From Lysobacterales bacterium (GTDB taxonomy: Bacteria; Pseudomonadota; Gammaproteobacteria; Xanthomonadales; SZUA-5), in the NCBI GenBank assembly GCA_022844135.1, contig JALHMG010000026.1, positions 1 to 64,000 on the forward strand: a stretch of 64,000 nucleotides of DNA, given 5' to 3'. Under the pieces are notes generated by a model. The model made no database searches, had not been told where the DNA came from, and worked only from the letters and a program-made list of their open reading frames with translations. Positions 6,441 to 56,894 of this stretch are shown one piece after another (the first letter of the stretch is position 1; each line of letters starts with the position of its first letter). Made by a program: the position numbers and the translations under genes.

Positions 6441-6720
6441 TCAGAAACTAGCCAGGTCGAACTGTTTTGCAGGGGCGGGAACTTGGCAAGAACCGACAAG
6501 GCACGCTGAGCACCAGCCACAGCTATCCCCTCGGGGCGCTGCGCCAAGTCAGCATCGACGCGCGCGGCGTTATCACGCACATCGATTATCAAGCCTGTGA
6601 GGCGCCATCGATGAGCTGGCCGCGGCGCATGAATACCACTAGGAAGTGAAATTCCTCTACTCGGAAGGTGTAGCGAACCACCGGAGTACTGAGTCATGGG
6701 CCGAAGTCGGCAGCTACTAG

Positions 6721-6966
6721 CCCGGATATTTCACGAGGTCGCGATGAAATGGCTTAGTTTCGTTGTTACAGCCCGGAAATCATCGAGTTTGTCGTACTGA
6801 CAAAGTGTTCGCTGCCATTTCCTCGCTAACACGGCCCTCGCTTGTTCTTTGCGCCGGACTCTTCGTTGCTCGTCGTCGCAATGGAACAACCATTCCTTCT
6901 CCTCCCGCCTCGATTCCGGCGCAAAGCCCTTCGCGATCTTCCGCGTTCCCTCATGAAATATCCGGG
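6721..6966. mobile_element. 246-bp MITE, copy 1 (terminal inverted repeats, CTAG duplication)
   Basis: The element begins CCCGGATATTTCACGAGG and ends in the inverted form of CCCGGATATTTCATGAGG. It is flanked by CTAG on both sides (6717-6720 and 6967-6970), a 4-bp target duplication. A second copy of identical length lies inverted at 50182-50427; aligning the two by eye gives about 21 differences (roughly 91% identity), mostly in one internal 60-bp stretch. A frame is open along the element in both copies but has no start codon and changes freely, so it is probably not a gene. The 4-5 bp duplications and CC-ended repeats fit a non-autonomous IS1380-like element; this family guess is weak. Confidence 0.75.
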
Positions 6967-7313
6967 CTAGAGCGACGACACCCGCAGCGGCCTGCCGTTC
7001 AACGCCCGCCCAGTACGTCGACAGCCAACTCGTCGCTGAGCGCCTTAACGCTAGCGAAATCCGCAATCGCATCAGCGACAGCGCGGCACGCCGAGCGACA
7101 CGAAGAAGTTCAACGACACTCTGAAATGGGATGGCTGGAATCATTTTGCAAGAACTCGCGAACGCAGTGCTGCCGATTGAAGAGTTTTATCGGCTGGTTG
7201 TTTGGGCCGCGGAACAGAACCGCTCCTGAGGAGATCGGTTGAGGTCTTGGCCACGCCTGGGCGTCGCTGAACCCAAGAGATGAAAACCTGGCTGTGAATT
7301 TGACTCTTCAACT

Positions 7314-26132: not shown

Positions 26133-26215
26133 TCCACCGAGGGGCGCTGCAAGTCACGTGCGTTGGCCGTGAATCACGCTCGGTGGAGATGCCTTCGCAA
26201 TGAAGGGCGCCCGTC
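26133..26215 (+). ncRNA. S-adenosylhomocysteine (SAH) riboswitch
   Basis: Upstream of ahcY the sequence CCGAGGGGCGCTGCAAG matches the conserved 5' core of the SAH riboswitch. The P1 helix is perfect: TCCACCGAG (26133-26141) with CTCGGTGGA (26179-26187). The conserved CACGCTCGG is present on the 3' side, and AATGAAGGGCGCCCGT (26200-26215) supplies the pseudoknot strand for GGGGCGC. SAH binding to this class turns expression of SAH-recycling genes on. The aptamer ends 17 bp before the ahcY start codon, so it can control access to the ribosome-binding site. The rest of the gap (25907-26132) shows no gene. Confidence 0.9.
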
Positions 26216-26232
26216 TTATTCGAGGACGCACC

Positions 26233-49189: not shown

Positions 49190-50661
49190 GTGACACTGGA
49201 TCAGCTGGCCGAGTCGTTGATCGAGAGCTTGCAAAAGCAAGACTGGCCGCGTGCGCTGGTGCTGGCGTGGCATGGGTTTCACGAGGACGGCGCACGGACG
49301 ACGACCTGGTTACGCGCAAGCTGGGGCTTCACCGAGGAAATGGTCGAGGATTGGATCGATTGGCTCAGCCGGCCGCACATCGATCTCAACGAACTCAAGC
49401 GGCGCCTCAGAAGTCGACCCGTCCTCCTTCTCGCTGCACTCGATAACCTGGCGCTAAGCGGCAGCGCCGAAGTGCTTGCGCAACCGCTGTGCATCAAGAA
49501 CTACTGGCTGGTGTTGCGCGCCAAGCCCTATGAATCCACGACCGGCCAGGACGCCGATCTGATTCGCTTTGTGCCTCATTGGAGTATCGTCGCCAAAAGA
49601 TTCGATTTACGAAGCCCGTCGAGAACATCGGAGGTTTTTCACTCAGACCTGCTGTTCATTGCGCTCAGTCGCGTTTCGCCAACACCGATCATCTATCTGG
49701 TTGAATTTGGATCGCCCCCTGAGTTCGATTGCGCGCCATGTCGCGATTGGCGGGCGGGCGACATTCTCAATGCAAGCGACCTGGTTGCCGAGGCCCAGGA
49801 GCATTTACAGCGTGCGCGCGGCGCTGGGGCCGATGTCGTGGTGTTCCCGGAGCTGTGCGCGTCACCCTCGATTCGGACACAAATCGCGGCGGATCTTCGG
49901 CGCCATCGTTCGTCCGTCAAGCTGGTCATCGCCGGGAGTTTTCATGTCAACGAGGGCCCGCGCTGGTTCAATCAAGCATTCGTTCTGGACGGCAACGGCA
50001 ACCAGATCGAGGAGTGGACGCAGCGCAAAATGACGGCGGTAAGTCTCTGCCACGGCGCTGAGTCGGAAGGCATCGAAACGTCGTCGGAACTCAAGATCGC
50101 CAGAACGTCTTGTGGCTTGCACGCCATCGCCATTTGCCTGGACCTGGCGCAGGCCCAGTACCTCGAAGAAGTGCCGTTTAACCCGGATATTTCATGAGGA
50201 AACGCGGAAGATCGCGAAGGGATTTGCGCCGGAATCGAGGCGGGAGGAGGAGGAATGGTTGTTCCATTGCGACGACGAGCAACGAAGAGTCCGGCGCAAA
50301 GAACGAGCGAGGGCCGCGTTAGCGAGGAAATGGCAGCGGACAGTCTGTCAATTCAACCAATTCGAAGATTTCAGCGCCGTTACAACGAAATCAAGCCATT
50401 TCCTCGCGACCTCGTGAAATATCCGGGTTTAAGGAGCTGCCGCTGACCTGGCTGTGGGTACCCAGTTTCAGTGCGGGAACAAGCGCACATGAACGCCAGG
50501 CGATTGCCTGCCGCGTTAACCAGGGGACCGTGACCGCCTGCGCGAATCAACGTTCGAAGCCGACACAGACCGGTCGTTCGTTTGTCGTCGGTCCAGAGGC
50601 TGAACTACTCGCACACAGCCCAGGCGAGGGCTGGCAAGTTCATCGCACGCAATGGCTCTAA
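49190..50661 (+). pseudogene. Nitrilase-superfamily (carbon-nitrogen hydrolase) gene interrupted by a MITE
   Basis: From GTG 49190 the frame runs to a premature TGA at 50197 inside a MITE. If the element and one TTTAA copy (251 bp) are removed, the frame continues and ends at TAA 50661, giving 406 codons. The C-terminal half is a nitrilase fold with the catalytic triad visible: Glu in VVVFPELCAS, Lys in WTQRKMTAVS, Cys in AIAICLDLAQ, and the downstream part WLWVPSFSAGTSAHERQAIA and ACRVNQGTVTACANQRS is on the far side of the insertion. The first 200 residues are helical with no recognised domain. It leads into the NLR-like locus. The truncated 335-residue product lacks the end of the fold and is probably inactive. 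Confidence 0.85.
50182..50427. mobile_element. 246-bp MITE, copy 2, inserted in the nitrilase gene (TTTAA duplication)
   Basis: Starts CCCGGATATTTCATGAGG, ends with the inverted CCCGGATATTTCACGAGG, and is flanked by TTTAA at 50177-50181 and 50428-50432. It matches the copy at 6721-6966 in inverse orientation, same length, about 91% identity by eye. The restored reading frame across the target site shows it was inserted into an intact gene. Confidence 0.85.
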
Positions 50662-50706: not shown

Positions 50707-51507
50707 ATGCGAAACGAATTGCCCGAGATCGTCTCCGCGCTTCAGGCCGGCGATGCGAATCGGTTGGACTCGGTGCAAGACGACGAGCTGCTGCTGCAAG
50801 CCGTCGCAGAGTGCGAGCGCCTCCATCCGGAGGGCCTTTCCGAACAGGCCGCACGCGGGCTTGATCTCGCGTACAGCATGCGTTTGCTCGAATTGGCCGG
50901 TCAGGGCAGTCACGAAGACGAGGCGCATGCCTTTGCGCAGCATTTGTATCGCATGGCGCACGATCAGCGGCGCGAGCATCTGGATTCAATGCGACCGCGC
51001 TTCCATGCGCGTTGGCGAGCCTATGCCGATGTCGCGGCTTTGCTGATGCGCCTACGCGCGCACGAACGGCAAAACGAGCTGGTGCGCGGCACCTCTGAGA
51101 AGTGGACCTTTGTCGTCGATACGTTGCTCAAGAGCGGCCCAGACGGTTTGGGCTGGTCGGCACTGCTCGATGCCATCTGCCAGTCGCCCATTGGACCGCT
51201 CTCGAAAGGTGGACTGACGCACTTGCTGAGCCGCATGCGCGCTGCCGGCTGGGTGCGCACAGTCAAAACCGGGCGCACCGTGCGCGTGTTTTTGGGGCTT
51301 AAGGCGCCTGCGTCTCAAAACACTCCGAGGAATCTGAGCACAGTTGCTGACGTTGCACAGCCGGCAGCTCATTCCGCACTTTCTCCCGCAATCTCAGGCG
51401 CCGACTCCAAGGGCACTCCCCAGAGTCCATCCGACGAGATTATTCAATTCCGTCGCCGAAACCGACCTTGCTCGCAATTCGTTTGCCCCCCGGCGAAGGC
51501 AGCATGA
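50707..51507 (+). CDS. Unknown protein with winged-helix-like region, upstream of the NLR-like gene
   Basis: The 266-residue product has a helical N-terminal half (LQAGDANRLDSVQDDELLLQ, HLYRMAHDQRREHLDSMRPR) and a segment around 130-205 that resembles a winged helix: TFVVDTLLKSGPDGLGWSAL, then LSKGGLTHLLSRMRAAGWVR and TVKTGRTVRVFLGL, with the turn and wing. The C-terminal 60 residues are low complexity. No family was recognised. Its stop overlaps the ATG of the 1796-residue gene (ATGA, 51504-51507), implying coupled translation and a shared role, perhaps as a regulator or adaptor of that protein. Confidence 0.7.
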   Translation: MRNELPEIVSALQAGDANRLDSVQDDELLLQAVAECERLHPEGLSEQAARGLDLAYSMRLLELAGQGSHEDEAHAFAQHLYRMAHDQRREHLDSMRPRFHARWRAYADVAALLMRLRAHERQNELVRGTSEKWTFVVDTLLKSGPDGLGWSALLDAICQSPIGPLSKGGLTHLLSRMRAAGWVRTVKTGRTVRVFLGLKAPASQNTPRNLSTVADVAQPAAHSALSPAISGADSKGTPQSPSDEIIQFRRRNRPCSQFVCPPAKAA

Positions 51508-54500
51508 ATTTCACCTACATCACGACGTTCTATAGCTACAAGGGCGGAGTAGGTCGTACGCTCGCTCTGGCTAATGTCGGCGTGGCGCTCGCAAAGCGTG
51601 GCAACGGGCCAGTGCTGTTGATTGATTGCGATCTGGAGGCCCCCGGATTGCATCGAATCGAGGCATTGAAACCTGATATCGAGAGACAAGGCGGCATCCT
51701 GCCTTGGCTGGGGCGGGTTGATCCAAGCGCCCCAGATGACGCTTCAAATGATGGTGAACTCTTTGAAGCGATCTACCGGCCGATCAACGGATTGGCGCTG
51801 GACATATTGCCGGCGGTTTTCGGCGATGGCGCCGCTGCCGCGTACGCGGAGATCGAATGGGCGCGTTGGTTCGAGACCGACGGCGAGTCGCGGATTTCGC
51901 CGCTCATGCGAGCGTTTCGACGGGTGCTTGTGGCGGTCCAGAAGCTGGGCTACGCCTATGTTCTGATCGATTCGCGCACCGGGCATTCAGATCTTGGCGG
52001 CGTGATGCTGTTTCAACTACCGCACATGGCAGTCGTCTTCAGCAACTACAACAATCAGAACCTGAGCGGCCTTAAGCCTATCGTGCAGGCCATGCTGCCC
52101 TACACCGATCGCGATAAGCCACCGCCAGACGCGACCATGCGCGGCTTCTTCCCACCGGCTGCGGGCGTCGAAGCCGATGCAAATCACCTGGGAACGCTAG
52201 AGCGCTGGCAAGTGTTTTCACCCGTGCCCATCGATCCGGAACTTGCGGAACTCCGTGGCGATCGTCAGATGCGGGCAAGAGAGATATTCATGTCGGATCT
52301 GGCGCTGAGCGGTTTCACAGAAATCCCGACCGTACTTGCGCTCCAGCTAAGAGAGTTTCTTGCGGTTTTGAACGCGCCCGACGGCGAGTTGGCGAAGTGC
52401 TATCTCGAGATTGCGACGCAGATCGAGAGCAATCGCGGTGAACGTGAGCGAGCGCTAGCGGCGCATGTGATGGTGAAGCCGCGGCGGGTTGAGTTGTTTG
52501 GTGAAGGGCATGTCAGCGTCACTTCGGTCGTTGGAGGCAAAGGTCTCGTCGGCAAGCCCTCAACCACCGCGCAAGGCAGAACGTTTGAGCAACGCGTCGC
52601 CGAGCTGTTGCGCTTGCTCGACTACGAAGTCAGCGGCGAGACGTTGCGGGATGGCAATCGTGTCGACTTGACGGCCAGGAAACGACGCTCGTTTCGCCCC
52701 GAGTATTTCGTCGTCGAGTGCAAAGATCAGAAAGACGCGATCAGCAAGGAGCAGGTTGAACGGCTCTGGATGTGGCGCGAGAGCGAGCGCAAGTCGGTGC
52801 CGCATGCGGACGGGCTGTTCGTAACCAGCGGCGACTATTCGCCTGCGGCGCGGGCGGTCGCCGAGAAACACGGGCTGTCGCTTCAGACCATCAAGGAACT
52901 GGAGCGCGAACTCTTCGATCCCGAACCCTATGTGCAGTCGTGGCTGCAGAGCTACGAAGGTAAGCGCGAGGCGCAGGCCTATGTTGCGCAGCAGGTGTTT
53001 GTCGCTGACGGAAGTCCGGCGACGCGAATGAACGTTGGCGATGGCGACCGCGCGGCAATGCCGAACAGCAGCGATAACGTTTCTGAGCTCGACGCTGATT
53101 CCGACGATTTCGATGGCGACGGGATCGACGATGACAACGACGACGCATCACGCATCAATCTGATCCCGTATGCGCTCGCCTGGCTCGGCGGCGAACCCAC
53201 GAAGCTGCGCCTGCCGAATCGCTATTGGCTGCTGATCGGCAACTACGGCACCGGCAAGAGCACGTTCACTCGCCGACTCACCTTCGAGTTGCTGCGTCGG
53301 CGTCGCGCTGGCGAGATCTTGCCGCTGCCGATTCTGATCAATCTCAAAGAACGCGCGGGCGCGCCGACGTTGGACAATCTGCTGCAGGAATTCCTCAGCG
53401 AATATCGCTTGAGCGCCAGCGTGCGCCAGTTGCGTTATGGCCTGGAGCAGGGCACCGCGTTGCTGCTGCTCGACAGTTTCGACGAGATGGCGCTGGCGCA
53501 ATACGGGCGAACGCTGGAGCAACAGTTGCGCGAGTTCGCGCGATTGGTGCTGGAATTTCCCGATGCCAAAGTGCTGCTGACCAGCCGCACACATTTGTTC
53601 CGCAGCGAGCAGGAACTGGAGCGCACCGTGCAGGCGCGCGATGGCGTGGCCGAACCCGGCTCGCCGCTCGCCGCCACCGCACGCGAACTCGGCGCCAGTA
53701 TCCAAACGCTAGCACCGTTCACGCCCGGGCAAATCGCCGCGTTCGTTCGCAACCACGCCACGGCACAGCGCGCGCAAGACATCCTCCAGTTTATCGATAG
53801 CACGCACAAGCTCAGCGATCTGGCGCCCACTGCAGTGCTGCTGGAAATGATCATCAGCGGCTTCGAGCGCCTGCGAGAGCGGCAAAGCAACACCGAGATC
53901 GTCGCTGCCGAGCTGTATCAGGTGTTCGTCGACGAATGGCTCGGCAAACGGGCACAGCTCAACGCGCAGCTCAGCAAAGAGCAAATGACGCAGTGGCTAG
54001 AAGTACTCGCGCGCCTGTTGTGGGATGCGCCAGGGCAGCGTCTGCATTACCAGCATCTGTACGATCACATCATGGCCCGCCGCGAGATCAGCGCCGCGAT
54101 CGATCCGGCGCGCGTCGATCTGGAACTGCGCACGGCGAGCTTTTTGACGCGCAACAGCGCCGGCGACTACGGCTTCTCGCACCGCAGCTTCCTGGAGTTT
54201 TTCCTGGCGCGCAGTTTGTTCCGCTGTTTGCAGTCGACGCGCGCGACGGGCTATGAAGGCCCGCTAATTGCTGCATTGCCTTACGAACGCCTGTCGCCCG
54301 AGTCGCTGCGCTTCTTTCGCGACTATGCAAACCTCGCGTGTCGGGACGCAACGCTGTTTTGGCAACACACCGGCCGCATCGTGCGCCAACTGCTCAGCGA
54401 ACCCCGCCCCGTCGCACGCAGCGCCAATGCGCTGCGGATGGTGCGCGAATGTGCGAGCAAACCAGCGGAATGGATTCCGGACAACGCACAGTTGGCCGGT

Positions 54501-56894
54501 GCGGACCTGAGCGGCGAGGCATGGCCGTTGCCGCTGCGCGGCGCGAATCTGCGCGGCGCGCGGTTGATCGGCAGTGGTTTCGCAGCGGCTGATTTGACCG
54601 CTGCCACACTGGCGGACGCAGAGGCGACGGACGCTGATTTCGCGGGTGCATGCCTGGCGCACGTCGACGCGCGCGCGCTGCGCGGCGAGCGGACGTGCTT
54701 TGCGCAAGCCAACTGCGGGCACGCGGTTTTTGCCGCATCGAGCCTGCCGTTTGCGGATTTCCGCGATGCGCAACTGTGCGCAGCCGACTTGACTAACGCG
54801 GCGCTGTGCAGCGCGCGGTTTCGCGGCGCAAAGGTGGATAGAGCACGCTGGGATGGCGCCGATCTGCGCTGTGTGCCGTACAGTGAGCGGCCAGAGAAAA
54901 AATCGCCGCGCGCGGCATCGCCGCGCGCGGAACAGCGATGGTCCGCGCGATCCGGAGTGCTTGCTCTGATCCGGATATCGCCGCGCCTGCTCGCCGCCGG
55001 CGATGCTGCAGGAACCGTTGCCATTTGGGATACCTCGCTCGGCCACAGGGTCGCCGTCTTCCAGGGACACTCAGGACCTGTCTCCGCCCTCGCGCACCTC
55101 GACAACGGGCAACTCGCCAGCGGCTCTTCCGACAACACCATCCGACTCTGGGATCGCAGCGGACAAAACCTCGCCGTCTTGCAGGGACACGAAGCAGCTG
55201 TCTACGCCCTCGCCCCACTCGACAACGGGTTACTCGCCAGCGGCTCCGACGACAACACCATCCGACTCTGGGATCGCAGCGGACTAAACCTCGCCGTCTT
55301 CCAGGGACACACAGGACCTGTCTTCGCCCTCGCGCCACTCGACAATGGGCAACTCGCCAGCGGCTCGTACGACAACACCATCCGTCTCTGGGATCGCAGC
55401 GGACTAAACCTCGCCGTCTTCCAGGGACACACTGAAGCTGTCGGCGCCCTCGCCCCGCTCGACAACAGGCAACTCGCCAGCGGCTCATGGGACAACACCA
55501 TCCGTCTCTGGGATCCCAGCGGACAAAACCTCGCCGTCTTCCAGGGACACACAAGCGCTGTCTACGCCCTCGCCCCACTCGACAACGGGTTACTCGCCAG
55601 CGGCTCGTCGGACGCCACTATCCGCCTCTGGGATCAAAGCGGCCTAAACTTCGCCGTCTTCCAGGGACACGAAAGATCCGTTGTCGCCCTCGCCCCACTC
55701 GACAACGGGCAACTCGCCAGCGGCTCGCTCGACAACACCATCCGTCTCTGGGATCGCAACGGCCAAATCCTCGCCGTCTTCCAGGGACACACAAATGCTG
55801 TCTCCGCCCTCGCCCCACTCGACGACGGGTTACTCGCCAGCGGCTCACTCGACAACACCATCCGTCTCTGGGATCACAGCGGCCTAAACCTGGCCGTCTT
55901 GCAGGGGCACGAAGGAAGTGTCGTCGCCCTCGCACCACTCGACAACGGGTTACTCGCCAGCGGCTCACGGGATTACACCATCCGACTCTGGGATCGCAGC
56001 GGCCTAAACCTCGCCGTCTTGCAGGGACACGAAGCAGCTGTCTACGCCCTCGCCCCACTCGACAACGGGTTACTCGCCAGCGGCTCTGGCGACAGTACCA
56101 TCCGACTCTGGGATCGCAGCGGCCTAAACCTCGCCGTCTTCCAGGGACACGAAGGAAGTGTCGTCGCCCTCGCACCACTCGACAACGGGTTACTCGCCAG
56201 CGGCTCTTCCGACAACACCATCCGACTCTGGGATCGCAGCGGACAAAACCTCGCCGTCTTGCAGGGACACGAAGCAGCTGTCTACGCCCTCGCCCCACTC
56301 GACAACGGGTTACTCGCCAGCGGCTCTGGCGACAGTACCATCCGACTCTGGGATCGCAGCGGCCTAAACCTCGCCGTCTTCCAGGGACACGAAGGAAGTG
56401 TCGTCGCCCTCGCACCACTCGACAACGGGTTACTCGCCAGCGGCTCTGGCGACAGTACCATCCGACTCTGGGATCGCAGCGGCCGTGAGACGCATCGTTG
56501 CGATTGTTTGGCACCGGTCCGCTCGCTCTGCGCCAGCGGCCACTTACTGATCGCGGGCCTAAGCACCGGCGAAATCCTCTACTTCGACATCCGCCCAGAA
56601 ACGCTCGGATTGTCGACCGAGCTGCGCCGCGTGCTGGCGGTGCGCTTCAAGGGCGATGAGCAGATGTTGCTCTATCCCGATGGCGCATTCTGGTGGCCAG
56701 ATCGCAACGACGGGCTGTTACCGGAGTTGGCCGACGAGACGATCTATCGGATTGTGGGCTCCTCGATCTACGATCCGGACGCGGCCTTTCCGGCCTCGGC
56801 GATTGCGGAGGAACGCCTGCTACGCCCACGCACCTTGGAGGAAATCCTGGGGCCGGTGCCGACGAACAAACGCGGGCGCAAGCGCAAGGCGTAG
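51504..56894 (+). CDS. NLR-like multidomain protein: KGGVGR ATPase, Mrr-like nuclease, NACHT, pentapeptide, WD40
   Basis: ATG 51504 was preferred to a TTG at 51468 because it overlaps the preceding stop. Order in 1796 residues: (1) SIMIBI/ParA-like ATPase, FYSYKGGVGRTLALANVGVA with K13-T19 and D41-C-D-L-E-A-P; (2) restriction endonuclease-like domain, near 355-475, RTFEQRVAELLRLLDYEV with D388 and E405-C-K407; (3) acidic linker near 529-547; (4) NACHT/STAND NTPase, Walker A GNYGTGKST (579-587), Walker B LLLLDSFDEMA, then winged-helix/SHRSFLEFFLAR; (5) pentapeptide-like repeats near 994-1128; (6) WD40 blades near 1150-1700, twelve of them in 120-bp DNA repeats; (7) C-terminal RVLAVRFKGDEQMLLYPDGA tail. 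The plan suits a cytoplasmic ligand-sensing effector. Function in defence is inferred from domain content; the target is unknown. Confidence 0.92.
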   Translation: MNFTYITTFYSYKGGVGRTLALANVGVALAKRGNGPVLLIDCDLEAPGLHRIEALKPDIERQGGILPWLGRVDPSAPDDASNDGELFEAIYRPINGLALDILPAVFGDGAAAAYAEIEWARWFETDGESRISPLMRAFRRVLVAVQKLGYAYVLIDSRTGHSDLGGVMLFQLPHMAVVFSNYNNQNLSGLKPIVQAMLPYTDRDKPPPDATMRGFFPPAAGVEADANHLGTLERWQVFSPVPIDPELAELRGDRQMRAREIFMSDLALSGFTEIPTVLALQLREFLAVLNAPDGELAKCYLEIATQIESNRGERERALAAHVMVKPRRVELFGEGHVSVTSVVGGKGLVGKPSTTAQGRTFEQRVAELLRLLDYEVSGETLRDGNRVDLTARKRRSFRPEYFVVECKDQKDAISKEQVERLWMWRESERKSVPHADGLFVTSGDYSPAARAVAEKHGLSLQTIKELERELFDPEPYVQSWLQSYEGKREAQAYVAQQVFVADGSPATRMNVGDGDRAAMPNSSDNVSELDADSDDFDGDGIDDDNDDASRINLIPYALAWLGGEPTKLRLPNRYWLLIGNYGTGKSTFTRRLTFELLRRRRAGEILPLPILINLKERAGAPTLDNLLQEFLSEYRLSASVRQLRYGLEQGTALLLLDSFDEMALAQYGRTLEQQLREFARLVLEFPDAKVLLTSRTHLFRSEQELERTVQARDGVAEPGSPLAATARELGASIQTLAPFTPGQIAAFVRNHATAQRAQDILQFIDSTHKLSDLAPTAVLLEMIISGFERLRERQSNTEIVAAELYQVFVDEWLGKRAQLNAQLSKEQMTQWLEVLARLLWDAPGQRLHYQHLYDHIMARREISAAIDPARVDLELRTASFLTRNSAGDYGFSHRSFLEFFLARSLFRCLQSTRATGYEGPLIAALPYERLSPESLRFFRDYANLACRDATLFWQHTGRIVRQLLSEPRPVARSANALRMVRECASKPAEWIPDNAQLAGADLSGEAWPLPLRGANLRGARLIGSGFAAADLTAATLADAEATDADFAGACLAHVDARALRGERTCFAQANCGHAVFAASSLPFADFRDAQLCAADLTNAALCSARFRGAKVDRARWDGADLRCVPYSERPEKKSPRAASPRAEQRWSARSGVLALIRISPRLLAAGDAAGTVAIWDTSLGHRVAVFQGHSGPVSALAHLDNGQLASGSSDNTIRLWDRSGQNLAVLQGHEAAVYALAPLDNGLLASGSDDNTIRLWDRSGLNLAVFQGHTGPVFALAPLDNGQLASGSYDNTIRLWDRSGLNLAVFQGHTEAVGALAPLDNRQLASGSWDNTIRLWDPSGQNLAVFQGHTSAVYALAPLDNGLLASGSSDATIRLWDQSGLNFAVFQGHERSVVALAPLDNGQLASGSLDNTIRLWDRNGQILAVFQGHTNAVSALAPLDDGLLASGSLDNTIRLWDHSGLNLAVLQGHEGSVVALAPLDNGLLASGSRDYTIRLWDRSGLNLAVLQGHEAAVYALAPLDNGLLASGSGDSTIRLWDRSGLNLAVFQGHEGSVVALAPLDNGLLASGSSDNTIRLWDRSGQNLAVLQGHEAAVYALAPLDNGLLASGSGDSTIRLWDRSGLNLAVFQGHEGSVVALAPLDNGLLASGSGDSTIRLWDRSGRETHRCDCLAPVRSLCASGHLLIAGLSTGEILYFDIRPETLGLSTELRRVLAVRFKGDEQMLLYPDGAFWWPDRNDGLLPELADETIYRIVGSSIYDPDAAFPASAIAEERLLRPRTLEEILGPVPTNKRGRKRKA
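55061..56500 (+). repeat. Twelve in-register 120-bp tandem repeats encoding WD40 blades
   Basis: Units start at 55061 and every 120 bp after it with no insertion or deletion; each encodes 40 residues around GH...VALAPLDNG.LASGS.D.TIRLWD. The block from about 56006 to 56206 is repeated identically at 56246-56446, a recent two-unit (240-bp) duplication. Differences between units collect at repeat positions 1, 2, 3, 5, 14, 20, 22, 29 and 32 after the GH pair, with position 20 using seven different residues (S, D, Y, W, L, R, G). Adding one divergent blade before and one after gives 14, the number for two seven-bladed propellers. Confidence 0.93.

Follow-up and report, generated by a model that had tools for sequence, protein, structure and literature searches.

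What are the two inverted 246-bp repeats that lie 43 kb apart in a 64,000-nucleotide stretch of a Lysobacterales bacterium (assembly GCA_022844135.1, contig JALHMG010000026.1, positions 1 to 64,000; the whole stretch is hereafter the window), what moves them, and why is one half of each conserved? The repeats are ordinary miniature inverted-repeat transposable elements (MITEs), most likely moved by a transposase of the IS1380 type. The folded core that they share with MITEs of other kinds is not ordinary: it is a covarying hairpin of about 79 nt, found in many other proteobacteria inside small elements with different ends.

Two insertions of one miniature element

The copies and their flanks are as follows.

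6721-6966, plus strand: MITE copy 1, 246 bp, with ends at 6721-6738 and 6949-6966
6717-6720: target duplication CTAG left of copy 1, read from the flank
6967-6970: target duplication CTAG right of copy 1, read from the flank
50182-50427, minus strand: MITE copy 2, 246 bp
50177-50181: target duplication TTTAA left of copy 2, from the flank and from frame restoration
50428-50432: target duplication TTTAA right of copy 2, from the flank and from frame restoration
49190-50661, plus strand: reading frame split by copy 2, 406 codons without the insert, with a weak CN_hydrolase match

The two copies are inverted, equal in length and identical at 225 of 246 positions (91.5%), and both carry the same 18-bp ends, CCCGGATATTTCAYGAGG. 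An earlier note, made from the sequence alone, had described two inverted 246-bp copies with 18-bp ends, about 91% identity and differing duplications (CTAG and TTTAA); all of this was confirmed, as was the clustering of the differences in an internal stretch of about 60 bp, since 15 of the 21 differing positions fall at element positions 36-89. The pair is the only inverted one of at least 40 nt reported by a repeat search of the window. No promoter-like or terminator-like sites were found at window positions 6600-7100.

Copy 2 is a true insertion that interrupts a gene, because its removal together with one TTTAA restores the 406-codon frame; deletion with 0 or 4 bp leaves broken frames of 336 and 350 codons, which marks TTTAA as a genuine 5-bp duplication. 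The match of this frame to CN_hydrolase is weak and partial (23.6 bits against a cut-off of 23.2). Each copy retains its own equal flanks, the pattern expected of two insertions between which no later crossover has become fixed.

In the genome of the window (5.34 Mb in 75 contigs), the 13-nt end core CCCGSATATTTCA occurs 172 times (84 forward and 88 reverse), which is far beyond chance; the reversed-pattern control occurs 0 times. Named records with this core pattern come from uncultured Lysobacterales or Gammaproteobacteria (8 stretches). At least 43 copies are full-length, and the total lies above 43, because each DNA search scored the best 40 of at least 170 candidates. Exact 4-bp duplications flank 38 of the 43 full 246-bp copies (CTAG 20, TTAG 8, TTAA 7, CTAA 2 and CTAT 1), and 37 of these 38 read YTAR; two further copies, one of them copy 2, have an exact 5-bp duplication only, and the flanks of the remaining three are unequal. 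Elements of 244, 319, 388 and 461 bp, plus one of 37 bp, share the ends of the window element. Altogether, the repeats are short and multicopy, with terminal inverted repeats, copy-specific target duplications and no transposase gene, and the MITE family proposed in the earlier note is thus borne out by many further copies with target duplications.

The 37-bp element (L062:501-537, at G000:C21:31633-31669) consists of barely more than both ends and has CTAA on each side; an ATGAAAT repeat within it suggests an internal deletion.

Probable link to an IS1380-type transposase

The earlier note had advised a search for more copies and for a transposase element with the same ends, and both are present in the genome. 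At G000:C1:147982-149660 lies an insertion sequence (IS) of 1,679 bp that is bordered by TTAG on both sides; one of its ends reads CCCGGATATTTCATGA, and the other is degraded. Its transposase frame belongs to the IS1380 family (PF13701, 1e-161; NF033539, 397 bits against a cut-off of 180) and is the single PF13701 match in the window genome. The ends of this element recur at five contig ends, as expected if further IS copies were lost in assembly. Moreover, among 303 plasmid records with a related transposase, the two that were read, ISPosp7 of Polaromonas and an IS1380 element of Acidovorax, are plasmid-borne and have ends that match the MITE and lie beside CTAG. Thus, the MITE ends are shared with one IS1380-family IS of the same genome and two plasmid IS1380 elements. 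The window element itself had no match in the plasmid collection.

The resemblance extends inwards at one MITE end, as judged beyond the terminal repeat by an anchored alignment test with shuffled controls.

6721-6825, plus strand: variable, probably IS-derived end of copy 1, of about 105 bp (z 3.8 past the first 18 bp, a level that 0 of 1000 shuffles attained)
50323-50427, minus strand: variable end of copy 2, probably IS-derived (z 4.2, with 0 of 1000 shuffles as good)

In both copies, it is the end with the variable stretch that is similar to the IS right end; in the same test, the opposite end of the MITE showed no similarity to either end of the IS. The earlier note had taken the variable region for a functional or converted remainder, and this was half right: the variable stretch itself resembles an IS right end, and it is the conserved other half that looks functional.

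A covarying hairpin core

The half opposite the IS-like end carries a hairpin of about 79 nt.

6848-6926, minus strand: core hairpin of copy 1, scored by model R1 at 95.5 bits (E 1.1e-23 for the window)
50222-50300, plus strand: core hairpin of copy 2, scored by model R1 at 97.6 bits (E 2.9e-24 for the window)

The fold of the core comprises an outer stem, an inner stem-loop and internal loops in which AGGC and CAACG are conserved; many members have tandem G.A/A.G mismatch pairs, with single G-C pairs as separators. In alignment A1, which holds 31 of 35 distinct cores (four near-identical ones were omitted), 15 of the 23 pairs are changed on both sides, and the covariation is 0.390, compared with 0.123 for shuffled and at most 0.131 for slid alignments. 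In L098 and L106, separators switch from G-C to C-G with compensation. Alignment A3, built from 59 cores at 37 loci that the searches of class and phylum had brought up, has 95% of its cells paired and a covariation of 0.755 (0.189 shuffled, at most 0.176 slid); the observed number of pairs with change on both sides was reached in 40 of 500 shuffles. Over the 129 distinct cores of A1 to A3, AGGC is kept in 120, CAACG in 104 and both in 99. Folded as a single strand, the whole of copy 1 has an energy of -110.4 kcal/mol (z -8.4).

The ratio of G.U to A.C in the outer stem is 66:11 in alignment A2 (63 rows) and 45:1 in A3. Such ratios point to a fold on one strand, the modelled one, an argument that is supportive only, for the reasons weighed below.

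No Rfam family (release 15) scored above its gathering threshold at the core in the window, in 20 loci or in L166. Likewise, topic and sequence-string searches of the open-licence literature, as far as its text was accessible, yielded no description of the core or of a core common to several MITE families.

Near copy 1, Rfam matches to TP73-AS1 (12.9 bits) and MDR-NUDIX (14.5 bits) are below threshold and at chance level. A group II intron model matches 6649-6775 on the plus strand below its gathering score (26.9 bits against 49, E 7e-6) and covers only the start of copy 1; it is perhaps an intron remnant adjoining the copy.

Spread of the core

With model R1, 60 of 151 relatives, belonging to 30 of 64 genera, were found to have the core; all 9 genomes of the family of the window genome are among them. 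Model R2, which was rebuilt from 78 hits, two doubtful rows among them, found it in 126 of the 370 class genomes, spread over 101 of 273 genera, and in 88 of the 397 phylum genomes, spread over 57 of 232 genera; the class and phylum samples overlap, and both counts take in the genome of the window. These searches scored 11 or 12 candidates per genome, and their E-values are rough, coming from a short calibration. As tallied from the tables, 101 of the 126 core-bearing genomes of the class reach an E of at most 1e-8, and 37 of the 88 phylum genomes with a core fall outside the class of the window. Two core loci were also used as queries: L182 had no match in plasmids, and L166 had none in E. 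coli and partial matches in five plasmid records (Azotobacter two, Halomonas, Methylophaga and Pseudomonas).

The core in elements with other ends

Enclosure, defined as an inverted repeat of at least 15/16 around the core within 350 bp, was tested on 63 loci (L134-L159 and L162-L198), of which 60 were testable and three end too near the core. Inverted repeats enclose the core in 51 of the 60, compared with 0 of 115 control sites taken from these loci. A second core adjoins the first in 22 of 37 loci, on the opposite strand in 21 of the 22, and the common lay-out is an element of about 160 bp with one core or of about 270 bp with two. Single linkage sorts the ends of 56 elements into 13 groups, 7 of them singletons, with weak joins of the Correia ends to the CTAGTGTGGTG group and of the window element's ends to L134; singleton ends such as those of L168 and L192 may be inner palindromes.

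The genome of the window holds at least two further end types around the core. Eight loci (L200-L207) have CTAGTGTGGTGTCCCAAAAATAAC ends, a second family with 59 end hits in this genome, and L199 is a core element with CTAGTGTAGTGCTTCGCTATTAG ends; a further core locus, L208, is degenerate. At the end of contig G000:C7, L226:2375-2513 carries the left end of the second-family IS together with 21 codons from the start of a protein. No Pfam, NCBIfam or plasmid match was found for it, and it may be the start of an IS630 transposase, which it looks like.

Several loci of this genome (L046, L050, L058, L059, L211-L213 and L218-L222) contain palindromic inserts around GCATGC (AAGCTTGC..GCATGC.., GCGGCATGCCGC). 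They sit within the core hairpin of both MITE kinds and look like a separate, hairpin-targeting repeat.

Proposed explanation and its rivals

The window element would be a non-autonomous mini-transposon, moved in trans by an ISPosp7-like IS1380 transposase and inserting at YTAR-like targets with duplication of 4, sometimes 5 bp. It appears to be a chimera, in which the end of about 105 bp probably derives from the IS right end and the other half carries the hairpin. The core would have passed between different end sets across the Pseudomonadota and have been retained because the folded strand does something, as RNA or, less likely, as single-stranded DNA; a possible role, of a kind reported for Correia elements and RNase III, is the protection or processing of transcripts. 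To this whole explanation, an IS1380-moved chimeric MITE with a shared, conserved folded core, we assign a probability of about 0.78; the ends, the duplications, the IS ends in the same genome, the resemblance at one end and the covarying fold are its observed parts.

A number of results weigh against it. The IS1380 transposase was not found in any of eight same-family relatives, and three of the genomes where it was not found (G001, G003 and G004) nevertheless hold MITEs with the ends of the window element; the one IS that was read has a degraded right end. A preference for G.U over A.C is built into the core model, and a skew (31:14) is also seen in the arms of 13 elements beyond the core, so that the strand argument is no more than supportive. 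Relative to the neighbouring genes, taken crudely as the longest open frame on each side, the core is oriented at random (21 sense and 23 antisense), which disfavours a simple role in mRNA. Nine of the 60 core hits lack ends at 15/16 and score 13 or 14, and two 103-bp elements with CTAGTGTGGTGTCCCAAAAATAAC ends (L228 and L044) are free of the core, which is thus dispensable for mobility.

A wider proposal is put forward tentatively, at somewhat less than even odds: the core may be a module that belongs to no single transposase, a folded RNA or single-stranded DNA conserved across the Pseudomonadota, which rides in MITEs of different transposase families (IS1380 in the window, others elsewhere, Correia in Neisseria) and repeatedly takes on new ends. 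Bacterial MITEs are usually taken as decayed remnants of single ISs; if the proposal is true, many separately listed MITE families would be vehicles of one widespread hairpin. If some dozen kinds of ends, in about a hundred genera, enclose one covarying structured core, then the insides of these elements have a history and probably also a function in common.

The strongest rival keeps the history and drops the function: one old element would have spread, its ends diverging or being exchanged with transposases while the middle simply persisted. Many end types do start near TA or CTAG, several groups look continuous, and most elements share the lay-out of one core in about 160 bp or two in about 270 bp. 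Neutral decay, however, would not leave 95% of the cells paired when both sides have changed in most pairs, and the retention of AGGC and CAACG at the frequencies given above is unexpected under it. We therefore regard descent without function as rather unlikely.

Much less probable still is that the core is itself a small mobile, REP-like hairpin that inserts into miniature elements. A compact hairpin occurring in elements with different ends is what such a history would leave; however, 51 of the 60 tested hits lie within terminal inverted repeats, and the flanks of 37 loci (109,674 bases, E at most 1e-3) contain no element-free core. The earlier note had pointed to inversion of the 43-kb interval between the copies, and it is highly improbable that they matter chiefly as such a recombining pair: they are inverted and 91% identical over 246 bp, but each retains its equal flanks, and with dozens of other copies in both orientations the pair is not special. 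Least credible is an artefact of the model, by which any long GC-rich hairpin would match: the E-values do come from a short calibration and plain hairpins reach 18 bits locally, but E is at most 1e-8 in most class genomes with a match (101 of 126), 91 of 151 relatives of the order have none, the next window match after both elements reaches only 15.1 bits (model R1, E 0.13), and enclosure by terminal repeats does not depend on the model.

Other features of the window

A SAH riboswitch lies at 26133-26219 on the plus strand (41.1 bits against a gathering score of 37). A frame of 1808 codons with many WD40 repeats occupies 51468-56891 on the plus strand and contains an array of 120-bp direct repeats at about 54920-56540.

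Comparison with known systems

Among known systems, the IS1380 ISs, that is ISPosp7 and its relatives (L229 and L230), have the terminal repeats CCCGGATATTTCA in common with the window element, and likewise a CTAG target; they differ from it in that the MITE has no transposase gene and one of its halves is unlike either IS end. REP and REPIN sequences are tagged hairpins moved by RAYT, without terminal repeats. The window element has both terminal repeats and target duplications, unlike a REP or REPIN; RAYT was not searched for.

Three further systems were compared by description. RUP of Streptococcus pneumoniae is a MITE whose ends match an IS of that genome (PMC2229807), and the window MITE likewise shares its ends with an IS of its own genome; RUP differs in its partner, IS630-Spn1, its TA target and its phylum. 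The CIR repeats of Caulobacter and Brucella, with two long arms and a linker, are said there to lack ordinary terminal repeats (PMC2229807), and their two-arm plan resembles the two-core elements described here. QMITE1 and QMITE2 of Coxiella are, like the window element, MITEs with stable folds, and some are expressed as small RNAs (PMC5896051, PMC10969869).

A further link is to the Correia elements (CREE, NEMIS), which are about 105-155 bp long, with terminal repeats, no transposase gene and a middle that weakly matches the core model. They differ in their ends, ATAGTGGATTAAC, and in their host, being reported to occur in Neisseria only (PMC2649163). The middle of a Correia element of Neisseria gonorrhoeae (L160) matches model R2 weakly but significantly, scoring 28.8 bits (with filters off, E is 1.3e-6 for 3,457 bases and would be near threshold over a whole genome), compared with 17.9 bits for a plain hairpin beside it; a Cupriavidus metallidurans element found with the Correia query (L161), which has other ends, reaches 40.8 bits. 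The window element does not have the 26-bp Correia repeat at its ends, CCCGGATATTTCAYGAGG, which differ from those of L160, and the Correia query had no phage match. The source of L160 (NZ_CP119140.1), a 2.17-Mb record filed as a plasmid, is by its size probably a chromosome. Because of the match at 28.8 bits, the Correia core and the shared core look related, Correia being scored against R2 and not directly against the window element. The window element would thereby be tied to the long-studied Correia repeats, and the core model allows the function of MITE cores to be tested.
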